Made by a program: the position numbers and the translations under genes. Positions 1,086 through 10,920 of a stretch of 48,782 nt of DNA are shown in pieces (position 1 is the stretch's first letter; each line of letters starts with the position of its first letter). Source of the DNA: Bacteroidales bacterium (lineage in GTDB: Bacteria; Bacteroidota; Bacteroidia; Bacteroidales; F082); the NCBI GenBank assembly GCA_017530365.1, contig JAFXMK010000030.1, positions 1 through 48,782 on the forward strand. Direction: 5' to 3'. Below the pieces are notes generated by a model. It was given only the letters and a program-made list of their open reading frames with translations, ran no database searches and was not told the origin of the DNA.

Positions 1086-1727
1086 TTATGGCTCTAATAA
1101 TCCATGGCTTTGTAGTGTCTTTTGCAATGTTTCAATCTCTTTGTGTTGTTCTTTTACAGCCTCGATCAAAAAGACAGTAAGAGCCTCGTAATCCACATAC
1201 AGCACACCATCTTCATCGGCGGCCACTGCTTCCGGAAGAACCTTTTCCACCTCTTGGGCAGAAACACCTGCTCTTCGAACTATATTGCTTTTGGTTTCGC
1301 CATCTTCTTCTGTGGGAACGTACCAAATCCCTGTTATTTGGTCAAGCACATTCCTTGCGTCCTCAATTTGTTGCTCCTCATGCTGAAACCTGGCATCGGA
1401 TCTTTGCAAGGTTCCGTTTTTGTAAACATATCCATGTCCCGTCACAAAGAAAGTGTGCCTTCCGCGATTTGGATCATCAAGGTTGGCAACAATCCAGTGT
1501 TTTTGAAGTGAATCGTTAGAATAGGACAAAGTTGCCCAGCTCCACTCAGTATTAAGTCGTGAGTGAAAGTAGGAATATCCGTTTGGCTGAATCTGGATGC
1601 CATAATCCTTTGTGAGACTACCTAAACTTACATGACTATCATCATGCAATTTGATTTGTGCTTTTGCGTCGATAAAAATAAAGAATGTCAAAACCCAAAT
1701 GAATAAATAGAACAATGGTTTTTTCAT
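1086..1727 (-). CDS. Secreted protein with C-terminal peptidase S74 (intramolecular chaperone-like) domain
   Basis: The start is the ATG at 1727, which directly begins a good signal peptide (MKKPLFYLF...DAKAQ); an ATG 24 bases upstream would add eight residues in front of it. The mature protein is short, about 190 residues. The C-terminal half matches the S74/endosialidase-chaperone pattern: RSDARF at residues 109-114, a helix leading to ITGIWYVP, then SAQEVEKVLPEAV, DGVLYVDYEALTVFLIEAVKEQ and a terminal coiled-coil helix. In phage tail proteins this domain trimerises the stalk and then cuts itself off using a Ser-Lys dyad (S then K five residues on). Here S110 is present but position 115 is Gln, so self-cleavage is probably lost. 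Bacteroidota often carry S74 domains on secreted proteins outside phages, and nothing nearby is phage-like. The role is unknown. Confidence 0.65.
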   Translation of the reverse strand: MKKPLFYLFIWVLTFFIFIDAKAQIKLHDDSHVSLGSLTKDYGIQIQPNGYSYFHSRLNTEWSWATLSYSNDSLQKHWIVANLDDPNRGRHTFFVTGHGYVYKNGTLQRSDARFQHEEQQIEDARNVLDQITGIWYVPTEEDGETKSNIVRRAGVSAQEVEKVLPEAVAADEDGVLYVDYEALTVFLIEAVKEQHKEIETLQKTLQSHGLLEP

Positions 1728-1763
1728 GGATATAGTTTTTAAATGAAACAATGATTTGTTTTT

Positions 1764-4054: not shown

Positions 4055-4105
4055 CAAAATTACAAAAATAATTCAGACTTTGCATTATATTTATATGTAT
4101 TTTTG
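4055..4105. promoter_or_regulatory. Divergent promoter region, TPR regulator / 2-hydroxyacid dehydrogenase
   Basis: Two -7 boxes of the Bacteroidetes type (TAnnTTTG) read leftward, TATTTTTG at 4070-4063 and TAATTTTG at 4062-4055; the outer one leaves a short leader to the ATG at 4049. A rightward TATTTTTG lies at 4098-4105, 39 bases before the dehydrogenase ATG at 4145. No convincing -33 box was found for either direction. These are pattern matches only. Confidence 0.45.
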
Positions 4106-4144
4106 CATCAGAAGCTCTGTTTAAAGCAAAAAACACCAAATCAA

Positions 4145-5062
4145 ATGAAAATCGTATTCCTTGAACCCCTTGGTCTCAAGACCAATGTCATAGAAGAGGC
4201 TTGTGCCGGATTGAAAGCACAAGGCCACGAAGTGGTCATCTATTCCGACCGTAATGAAAACCTTGATGAGCTCATCCGTCGTGCCCATGACGCCGAAGTC
4301 GTCATTGAAAGCAATATTCCGTTGCGTAAAAATTTCTTGGATGCTTGTCCCAACTTGAAGATGCTGTCCATCGCCTTCACGGGCTTGGATCATATCGACA
4401 TGGAGGAATGCCAACGTCGTGGTATCGTGGTGAAGAACGCCGCTGGCTATTCCACCGAGGCCGTTGCTGAATTGGCCATTGCCATGATGATCGACGTTTA
4501 TCGTAAGGTGTTGGAGAACGACCGCATCACTCGTGAATGCCAGCGCAAAGGCATCATGCCGGGACGTGAGATAGGCGGAAAGACCGTAGGCATCATCGGG
4601 ATGGGCAACATCGGTCAACGTGTGGCAAAGCTGCTGAATGCCTTCGGCTGCAAAGTGCTGGCATGGAACCGCACGCCAAAAACTGTGGAAGGTGTCACCT
4701 TTGTGGACAAGGAGACCTTGTTGAAGGAATCGGACATCGTCACGTTACATATCGCCTTGAACAATGAGACCCGTGATTTCATCACTGAGAAAGAGCTGAA
4801 ATTGATGAAGCCCTCAGCCATCCTTATTAATACAGCACGAGGACCTGTCGTGAATGAACAAGCCCTCGCGGATGCCTTGAAGTCGGGGATTATTGCCGGT
4901 GCCGCCACCGATGTGTATGGTACCGAGCCGCCTTTGAAGCAGGACAACCCCTTGTTTGATGCGCCTAATCTTGTGATGTTGCCTCACATCGGCTTTGCCA
5001 CTGAGGAAGCCTTTGTGCTTAGATTGGGGATAGTGATTAAGAAATTAGAATTAATAATTTAG
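4145..5062 (+). CDS. D-isomer specific 2-hydroxyacid dehydrogenase, altered C-terminus
   Basis: NAD(P)-dependent dehydrogenase of the D-lactate/D-3-phosphoglycerate/hydroxypyruvate family. The start MKIVFLEPLG at 4145 is preferred over an in-frame ATG at 4103 because the family begins this way. Visible motifs: the Rossmann dinucleotide loop GIIGMGNIGQ, the signature INTARGPVVNEQAL with the catalytic Arg of TARG, and the catalytic His in LPHIGFATEEAF near the C-terminus. Substrate specificity cannot be assigned. The last residues (about 293-305, LGIVIKKLELII) do not match the family's usual final helix and are encoded by, or run into, an AT-rich heptamer repeat that continues past the stop; the protein ends roughly ten residues short of what I would expect. 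The catalytic core is complete, so activity may be retained. Confidence 0.85.
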   Translation: MKIVFLEPLGLKTNVIEEACAGLKAQGHEVVIYSDRNENLDELIRRAHDAEVVIESNIPLRKNFLDACPNLKMLSIAFTGLDHIDMEECQRRGIVVKNAAGYSTEAVAELAIAMMIDVYRKVLENDRITRECQRKGIMPGREIGGKTVGIIGMGNIGQRVAKLLNAFGCKVLAWNRTPKTVEGVTFVDKETLLKESDIVTLHIALNNETRDFITEKELKLMKPSAILINTARGPVVNEQALADALKSGIIAGAATDVYGTEPPLKQDNPLFDAPNLVMLPHIGFATEEAFVLRLGIVIKKLELII

Positions 5063-5118
5063 AATTTAGAGAGCTGTCACCATCACCCTCTAAATTCTAA
5101 ATTTTAAATTATTAATTC
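5048..5118. repeat. AT-rich heptamer-unit inverted repeat between convergent genes
   Basis: Left arm 5048-5071 and right arm 5088-5118 are reverse complements, except that the right arm holds one extra 7-base unit. The loop is 5072-5087. The left arm is also nearly identical (one mismatch in 24) to the minus-strand sequence at 12912-12889 upstream of gldE. The left arm contains the dehydrogenase stop codon and the right arm contains the stop codon of the VWA lipoprotein. The element may act as a bidirectional hairpin terminator. Confidence 0.75.
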
Positions 5119-6197
5119 CCCTGGTGGGTATTGCCATTCAGCGTCTCGATGAACTGACGTGCGGCGTTCTTTACGCTTTGGAAGTCGTTGCTGAGCGAGC
5201 TTGAGCAGTCGAGGACCAGCATGACCAGTGCGCTCTTGAACTCTTCTTTAACCACGGTGTTGCCCGAGGGGGTGAACTCGCTGTTGTTTTGCCATGCATT
5301 GCTGCTCGGAATGTAATTCCATTGTTTGGTGAGAGTGGCAGGCACTTGTTCTCCATCGGGAGTCAGCAGGTTGACGAAAGTGAACTCGTCGAAAATGCCT
5401 GAAGAAGTGGCATAGATGACGGGGCCGCAGTCTTGAAGACCCACATAAGTGACCTCGTTGAGCAAACCTTTGTTGTTTTGACGAGAGTAGGTGCCTTCGA
5501 TGTACATGGTTGATTGGGTGGCGTCTTCAACGTTGTCGAAAGTGAAGCGGATGAGGGTGCCGGGATTTTGAGCCGGGAGTTTCAAGGTGACATCGTAAGA
5601 TGAGCTTTGGTTGTAAAGGTCTTGGGCGATGTCGGCGAAGATGGTTCCAACTTGTGACATGCTTTCCACCTCATAAACGTTCTCTTCGTTGCTGGAGAGC
5701 TTCTCCAAGTTACGACGGAAGGAGTTGATGTCAACGACATCGGAGCCTTTCACGCCGATAGTGTAAGCAGAGACCGGAATGTCGCTGATGTAGGTGGACT
5801 TGATACGGTTGCTGACGGCATTCAGATAGTCATCGTTGCTGTTATAGTTGTCGTTCAGCACGTATGAACCTTGGTCCAAACCATCGGTAAAGGTGATGAC
5901 GGAAACGTTGATAAGGTCGGCAGGAGGGGTGATGCTCTCAATCTTGTCGAGGGCAGTGTTGACGGCGTGATAAAGGATGGTACCGTTCGACATGCTAAGG
6001 TTGTCGATGTACTCTTTCATCTCGTCTTTGGTTTGGTCGTTGAGGATTTTCAGAGTCTTGGTATGCAACTCGTCATTAAATCCGATGATACCCACATACA
6101 AGCCTTCTTGGCTGGTGTCGGGTTTGTCTTTGAAGCAGGAGGTCATTGCGACCGAAGTAAGCAGCAGGGCTGCCATAAGAATCACATTTCTTTTCAT
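5112..6197 (-). CDS. Lipoprotein with apparently circularly permuted VWA domain
   Basis: The 361-residue product has a lipoprotein signal with lipobox MTSC (C21), so it should be membrane-anchored, probably surface or periplasmic. The von Willebrand factor A elements are all present but in rotated order. Starting at residue 34, YVGIIGFND is the second core strand of a VWA fold; G72-T73 (NGTILYHAV) supplies the MIDAS Thr; ITFTDG at 101-106 supplies the MIDAS Asp D105. A helix-rich stretch and a beta-rich insert (about 205-320) follow. Only at the C-terminus does the first VWA strand with the MIDAS DxSxS motif appear (D330, S332, S334 in LDCSSSLSND), followed by its amphipathic helix and then the stop. 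Joining the C-terminal end to residue 34 would give a normal VWA order. VWA/MIDAS domains bind divalent metal and mediate protein-protein adhesion. The stop codon lies in an AT-rich repeat. No partner genes are evident. Confidence 0.8.
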   Translation of the reverse strand: MKRNVILMAALLLTSVAMTSCFKDKPDTSQEGLYVGIIGFNDELHTKTLKILNDQTKDEMKEYIDNLSMSNGTILYHAVNTALDKIESITPPADLINVSVITFTDGLDQGSYVLNDNYNSNDDYLNAVSNRIKSTYISDIPVSAYTIGVKGSDVVDINSFRRNLEKLSSNEENVYEVESMSQVGTIFADIAQDLYNQSSSYDVTLKLPAQNPGTLIRFTFDNVEDATQSTMYIEGTYSRQNNKGLLNEVTYVGLQDCGPVIYATSSGIFDEFTFVNLLTPDGEQVPATLTKQWNYIPSSNAWQNNSEFTPSGNTVVKEEFKSALVMLVLDCSSSLSNDFQSVKNAARQFIETLNGNTHQGN

Positions 6198-10380: not shown

Positions 10381-10920
10381 ATGAAGAAATTATTCTTAAT
10401 GATGGGTCTTGCTTGCCTCTTCATGGTGGCCTGCAACAATGCTCCTAAACAACAGGAACAGCCCAAAGAAGAACCTCAGCAGGAAGTTGCTGTCGCTGAA
10501 GAACATCACTGCCCCTTCTGCAGCCTGAAGGCTGAATATGCCAAGTGGGAAACCATGGAAGAAGCCGCTAGAGTTGAGCTGAACAACAAAGCCATCGCTC
10601 TCTTTGCCGAAATGGACGCCAAGATGGAAGAAATGAAGGCTGAAGGTAAGGAATGCTGCGAGAAAGCCGGTGAAGTGAAAGAAGCTTGCGAACAGAAGGT
10701 TGCCGAAGTGACCGAGGAAGTCAAGGCTGAATGCGAAGCCAAATGCGCCGAGATGAAAGCCAAGATGGACGCCGTCATGGAAAAGTGGGCCAACATTGCC
10801 AGCATGACCAACGATGAGCAGAAGGACCTCGTCCTCGAGCGTATCTCTGCCATGGGTATGGGCCAAGGCAAGTGTGACAGCCACGAAGGCGAAGAGCATC
10901 ACTGCGGTGAAGCTAAATAA
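10381..10920 (+). CDS. Cys/His-rich, charged helical lipoprotein of unknown function
   Basis: I do not recognise this 179-residue protein. It has a lipoprotein signal with lipobox MVAC (C18), followed by a Gln/Pro/Glu linker. Residues 42-47 read HHCPFC, a possible metal or redox site. The rest is a long run of Glu/Lys/Ala-rich, probably coiled-coil helix carrying regularly placed cysteines (ECCEKAG, EACEQK, AECEAKCAEM). The tail returns to a metal-site pattern (GKCDSHEGEEHHC). Codons are strongly biased (GAA, AAG, GCC, AAC), like those of nifJ, which suggests high expression. It has its own promoter and a strong terminator, so it is a monocistronic unit. Metal storage or sensing, or a thiol-linked envelope scaffold, are guesses; no catalytic domain is visible. 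Confidence 0.8.
   Translation: MKKLFLMMGLACLFMVACNNAPKQQEQPKEEPQQEVAVAEEHHCPFCSLKAEYAKWETMEEAARVELNNKAIALFAEMDAKMEEMKAEGKECCEKAGEVKEACEQKVAEVTEEVKAECEAKCAEMKAKMDAVMEKWANIASMTNDEQKDLVLERISAMGMGQGKCDSHEGEEHHCGEAK

Follow-up and report, generated by a model that had tools for sequence, protein, structure and literature searches.

A putative surface lipoprotein with a circularly permuted VWA domain in a protein family of the Bacteroidales

The window, meaning the whole stretch of 48,782 nucleotides analysed here (contig JAFXMK010000030.1 of the Bacteroidales assembly GCA_017530365.1), carries at 5112..6197 a lipoprotein gene predicted to encode a circularly permuted VWA domain (cpVWA). The gene lies on the minus strand and specifies 361 amino acids plus a stop; the same positions read on the plus strand contain six stops. 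An earlier sequence-only reading had the coordinates right, to which the minus strand is now added. Sequence reading places a lipoprotein signal peptide at residues 1–21 (6135..6197, minus strand), with the lipobox TSC ending at Cys21, and a simple lipobox rule flags 47 of the 51 permuted proteins described below. A passage in PMC5080379 gives C-X-K-(D/E)2-X as the optimum lipoprotein export signal of Capnocytophaga. The window protein has C-F-K-D-K and matches this signal only partly.

A D-2-hydroxyacid dehydrogenase-like gene (4103–5062, named by eye) converges on the cpVWA gene. Between this pair, an AT-rich inverted repeat was seen by eye at 5045–5115; it was not flagged by the terminator scan and is possibly a two-way terminator. 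The convergent dehydrogenase-like/cpVWA pair occurs at 11 of 11 loci in the clade of the window protein. The same genome holds a second cpVWA copy (L002), 66% identical and with the same plan, which also adjoins a dehydrogenase-like gene, so the gene pair is duplicated in the genome. At part of the loci of the sister clade the neighbours are OsmC-like and hexosaminidase-like (by eye), and no common functional theme was found among the neighbouring genes.

The linear order DxSxS, T, D is customary in the VWA superfamily, but it is a habit of the family and not of the fold. The window protein departs from this order, with T73 and D105 preceding D330–S334, and is therefore classed here as a circularly permuted variant rather than an ordinary VWA member. 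The sequence-only reading had described the order as GFN, T73, D105 and then a C-terminal D330-x-S332-x-S334. Its motif positions (IIGFND 37–42, NGT 71–73, ITFTDG 101–106 and D330/S332/S334) proved exact, and its order is borne out both by direct reading and by Pfam placement. Pfam VWA (PF00092) matches residues 28–187 with 44.4 bits (cut-off 23.8) over profile positions 33–172, and VWA_2 matches residues 325–357 with 29 bits (cut-off 27) over profile positions 1–39. Because VWA_2 positions 1–39 are placed after VWA positions 33–172, the missing start of the domain lies at the C-terminus of the protein. Judged by these profile placements, the motif order is not chance.

Four segments follow the signal peptide along the chain, all encoded on the minus strand. 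Segment B runs from beta2 to the last VWA helix (residues 30–198, 5604..6110) and includes the codons of T73 (5979–5981) and D105 (5883–5885); it was delimited by Pfam VWA (33–172), by a segment HMM and by hhalign against ordinary-order relatives. Segment b1 comprises the first strands of a beta domain (residues 199–226, 5520..5603), which follow the VWA domain in ordinary-order relatives. Its assignment derives from hhalign, where the query to residue 221 aligns on the canonical form to 359, and from full-model matches reaching position 225–235 in, for example, the ordinary-order loci L067, L068 and L069; the short b1 HMM alone gave no match in those loci. Segment b2 is the remainder of the beta domain (residues 227–315, 5253..5519; segment HMM and hhalign) and precedes the VWA domain in ordinary-order relatives. 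Segment A, the relocated beta1-alpha1 unit of the VWA domain (residues 318–358, 5124..5246; VWA_2 1–39, segment HMM and hhalign), lies C-terminally and contains DCSSS (residues 330–334, 5196–5210).

Relatives were found in 43 of 100 near genomes (own included), in 63 of 99 genomes of the genus and in at least 15 of 393 genomes of the taxonomic order, tallies that pool permuted, ordinary-order and fragment matches. Outside the order none was found in the class sample (at least 2 of 395 genomes, both of the same order) or the phylum sample (at least 1 of 395, the window's own); the order, class and phylum searches scored the best five or six candidates per genome, so these counts are lower bounds. 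No further family rows were found among the viral contigs searched. The retained set, after removal of duplicates and broken loci, holds 51 permuted proteins with the beta domain, five permuted without it and 11 of ordinary order. Among the 51 are the window protein and its paralogue L002, together with two pairs identical over the aligned segments. Duplicates (L055–L058, L071, L078–L080, L083 and L084) were dropped before the tree, MIDAS, copy-number and layout counts, as were the broken or partial ordinary-order loci L052, L066, L077, L081 and L082. Contig-end fragments (G014, G016 and G022:C110) stand outside the rows, and L085–L090 (repeats of the own and G080 loci) and L091–L120 stand outside the tree set. 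In L052/L066/L081 (G075:C135) and L077/L082 (G232:C120), which are of ordinary order, A and B lie out of one open frame; these are broken genes or sequencing errors.

Segment HMMs built from 34 permuted rows (query included) traced B-b1-b2-A in the permuted ORFs (b1 undetected in L063 and L064) and b2-A-B in the others (b2 undetected in L046 and L047). A search of homologues for conserved order, which the sequence-only reading had proposed as a check, thus returned the B-beta-A plan in 51 rows, the window protein among them. The permuted rows have a median of 120 residues between B and A, and chain length after A is at most 60 residues in 36/51 and more than 100 in 15/51. Three of the proteins with more than 100 residues after A match Pfam FGE-sulfatase, divergent InlB B-repeat and fn3, one each. 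Pfam recognition of the VWA domain itself varies across the five other permuted relatives scanned: L002 and L034 reach a VWA cut-off, L033 (20.7 bits) and L061 (VWA_2 17.5; Ku_N just above cut-off) do not reach one, and L036 has no VWA match.

The eleven relatives of ordinary order (L043–L048, L067–L070 and L076) belong to the same taxonomic order, and unpermuted relatives occur in the window's genus. Like the window protein they contain segments A and B (11/11), with b2 detected in 9/11; unlike it they have the order b2-A-B-b1, so that the VWA domain lies within the beta domain. They differ at both ends of the chain as well, 9/11 being without a lipobox by the simple rule (the two flagged resemble ordinary signal peptides by eye) and 11/11 having a C-terminal tail of more than 100 amino acids. 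By eye these tails are beta-barrel-like, and the six tested against Pfam gave no match.

Profile alignment relates the two forms by rotation. In hhalign between 34 permuted and 10 ordinary-order rows, query residues 28–221 fall on L043 161–359 (probability 99.9, E 4e-31) and residues 225–361 on L043 26–169 (probability 99.6, E 1e-23), and these crossed matches cover the mature protein except residues 22–27 and 222–224. As expected of a circular permutant, each half finds its counterpart in an unpermuted homologue, the order is swapped and no segment is left over. The overlap at L043 161–169 is the alpha1/beta2 loop, where the permuted chain starts and ends. Reciprocally, the ordinary-order profile matched at least 2 of 295 genomes of the class (the window's own and G080), both with permuted order and with the halves crossed. 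When this profile was rotated, the single-match score of the query, 99.4 bits without rotation, climbed to 178.2 bits (residues 35–361) with the cut placed immediately ahead of beta2; cuts from 159 to 169 all gave 175–179 bits, and the score dropped on either side. A gain was also seen in L015, L033 and L061, and two ordinary-order controls fell. The Rossmann-like VWA fold predicted for the window protein, in which the motifs would meet at one metal site, draws its support from homology to these relatives, whose profile matches complement C2 (E 4.9e-6). On this evidence the permutation is real and inherited and the gene is not a broken copy. The sequence-only reading had held that complete VWA homologues showing this copy to be truncated would count against it; every segment of the ordinary form is instead present here, rotated.

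The MIDAS residues are retained on both sides of the permutation. In a 34-row alignment that includes the query, T73, D105, D330 and S334 do not vary, with S332 conserved to at least 90%; all five positions are kept in 51/51 permuted rows (Thr at 332 in 7), in 11/11 ordinary-order rows and in L075, an insert-free relative described below. These observations bear on another reading, already entertained in the sequence-only reading, in which the product is a slice cut from a tandem VWA array and truncated to the end of one VWA domain and the start of the next. The linear reading of a single sequence would permit such a slice, and one of the standard routes to a permuted gene is to cut a slice out of a tandem duplication, so it may be the evolutionary origin of the arrangement. 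As an account of the present protein we regard it as extremely improbable. Exactly one A and one B were found in 51/51 permuted ORFs (i-E below 1e-3), none of the ORFs listed has A both before and after B, and MIDAS residues of both halves are conserved family-wide. The many short ends after A also speak against it, as does the window protein's own end at what is the alpha1-beta2 loop of the ordinary form.

Distances among the A segments correlate with those among the B segments: Mantel r was 0.88 over 49 distinct rows and 0.65 over a diverse set of 20, and in neither case did any of 2000 shuffles reach the observed value. This speaks against recent acquisition of A; the correlation and the MIDAS conservation would also be expected if the halves met between chains. 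AlphaFold2, run on a two-row alignment of the window protein and L003, returned a mean pLDDT of 33.8 and a pTM of 0.25, values too low for a usable model.

Five permuted relatives lack the beta domain. In L075 a signal-peptide-like start (by eye) is followed by B, about 9 residues, A and the stop, which makes about 234 residues when counted from the ATG closest to the hydrophobic stretch. Segment A of L075 scores 36.1 bits (E 2e-10) with its HMM, and a Pfam scan without the first Met gave 29 bits for VWA_2 (cut-off 27) and 19.9 for VWA (cut-off 23.8). It gained nothing from rotation (78.5 bits unrotated, 76.6 at the query's best cut), because the beta domain is absent and the single match stops before its A. 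By these matches L075 is a permuted VWA without the insert, and it is the sole insert-free locus with an intact MIDAS. On contig G252:C104, L075 and a full-length cpVWA gene (L065) lie a few kb apart.

The four other loci without the beta domain (L049, L050, L051 and L074) keep segment B and carry long stretches C-terminal to their permuted VWA. The changes found in them are S334N or S334F, D105K or D105N and, in three of the loci, T73A; D330 is kept. Their A remnant is weak when the whole ORF is scored (5.1 to 8.3 bits, E 0.09 to 0.8) and scores 9.5 to 12.7 bits within a 65-residue stretch, where 0/500 shuffles were as high in each of the four loci. MIDAS residues were lost on both halves, as one shared site predicts, and the joint loss in the four loci may be one evolutionary event. 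Given the ordinary-order homologues, the insert-free form, the 51/51 conservation and this loss on both halves, the two halves very probably form one MIDAS. The main proposal of the sequence-only reading, a VWA domain rotated by one strand-helix unit whose parts make up one site, is accordingly favoured, at the level of sequence, by the circular relation as well as by these features. The same four loci also suggest that the fold may persist metal-free, since they have lost the MIDAS residues on both halves together with the beta domain and kept B. The VWA domain could then be a metal-free structural scaffold, with function residing in the beta domain or in C-terminal modules. We think this unlikely, as the MIDAS set is kept in 51/51 beta-containing permuted rows and in L075.

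We consider it highly probable that the gene encodes a lipid-anchored secreted protein with a naturally circularly permuted VWA domain, in which A completes one MIDAS in its own chain. The original chain would have been b2, then A (beta1-alpha1 with DxSxS), then B (the remaining VWA with T and D), then b1. Joining of the old ends, after b1 and before b2, would have produced one contiguous beta domain, and new ends would have opened in the alpha1-beta2 loop, which in known VWA folds lies on the face opposite the metal site. The beta domain would thereby have become an insert within the VWA domain, where formerly the VWA domain lay within the beta domain. Segment A is predicted to fold back onto its own chain, packing into the sheet there and completing a MIDAS of D330, S332, S334, T73 and D105, which may bind a divalent metal and, via the metal, an acidic ligand, as VWA adhesins do. 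Both joints between the VWA and beta domains would be kept and only the tether moved, with lipid and linker entering at beta2 and the optional extra modules (FGE-like, InlB-repeat-like and fn3-like) leaving from alpha1. We infer a lipid-tethered surface receptor or adhesin with its MIDAS facing away from the membrane.

A different way to complete the site would be domain swapping, in which the C-terminal A of one molecule completes the VWA domain of the next in a donor-strand-like manner, giving dimers or chains. Completion within a chain and between chains look the same in sequence, the short forms end in a free C-terminal A, A is separated from B by the median spacing given above, and strand exchange has a precedent in the fimbriae of this bacterial order. 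However, the link between the old ends in L075 is about 9 residues long, which should suffice for closure within a chain because the N- and C-termini of VWA domains are neighbours, and 15 of the 51 permuted proteins carry more than 100 residues after A. On balance we find swapping unlikely. We give slightly less credence still to the bolder idea that permutation turned the VWA domain into a polymerising or swapping module, building lipid-anchored surface chains with a MIDAS at each joint.

A tree was rooted with two VWA proteins from the same genome that look BatA/BatB-like by eye. One of its branches (85/51; 88% of 200 bootstraps) separates the ordinary-order rows from the permuted rows, so that one switch suffices; to account for the forms that lack the beta domain, two changes are needed within the permuted set. 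The single switch is modestly supported, the outgroup sits on a long branch, and long-branch joins were flagged. We take the ordinary order to be ancestral, since it is shared by the outgroup and by VWA domains in general.

Compared with the VWA domain as modelled in Pfam (PF00092 and PF13519), both halves of the window protein match the profiles and the full MIDAS set is present; the difference lies in positions 1–39 following 33–172 and in the beta domain, about 120 residues long, that occupies the old N/C junction. A related architecture is found in integrin beta chains, where the I-like domain is inserted in the hybrid domain. There a VWA domain and a beta-sandwich-like domain are connected via two linkers, as in the ordinary-order relatives; in the window protein guest and host domains are exchanged. 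No integrin beta chain appeared among the sequence matches listed for the permuted and ordinary-order profiles; the best match listed was integrin alpha-M (E 0.03) for the permuted profile and complement C2 (E 4.9e-6) for the ordinary-order one. A search of solved structures with the query protein alone gave two matches, the best with E 0.018, which we took as chance. The minor fimbrium subunit Mfa5 also bears a VWA domain and, unlike the window protein, is a fimbrial component with the ordinary VWA order. Its structure (6tnj) matched the ordinary-order profile weakly (E 0.089), and a passage in PMC11316588 calls it a 'protein containing a VWA domain'.

Natural circular permutation as an event is already known. 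Excerpts of PMC2430557 describe cpRAS and YlqF/YawG as naturally permuted GTPases with their motifs kept, and there the VWA domain of cpRAS proteins figures as a partner domain and is not described as permuted. These GTPases resemble the present case as circular permutations of a common alpha/beta domain and differ in superfamily. In open-licence PMC literature with permuted VWA, MIDAS or integrin wording, none of the titles and abstract openings listed named a permuted VWA, and cpRAS was the nearest entry. Its unpermuted relatives, its insert-free form and its sharply defined cut point make the present permutant unusual. It indicates that guest and host domains can trade places by circular permutation. 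Few adhesion and metal-binding modules are as widespread as VWA domains, and in integrin-type models force enters via the chain ends. Here the chain ends appear to have moved to the alpha1-beta2 loop with both beta-domain joints kept, and the permuted and unpermuted relatives in one genus constitute a matched pair for relating tether position to MIDAS affinity and stability.

Two other products encoded in the window were noted by eye. A protein encoded at 1086–1751 (minus strand) has a C-terminal part like the S74-type intramolecular chaperone domain, which is better known from phage tail fibres. The product of 10381–10920 (plus strand) is lipoprotein-like and has a high content of Glu, Lys, Met and Cys; it also contains His-His-Cys motifs and possibly binds metal.
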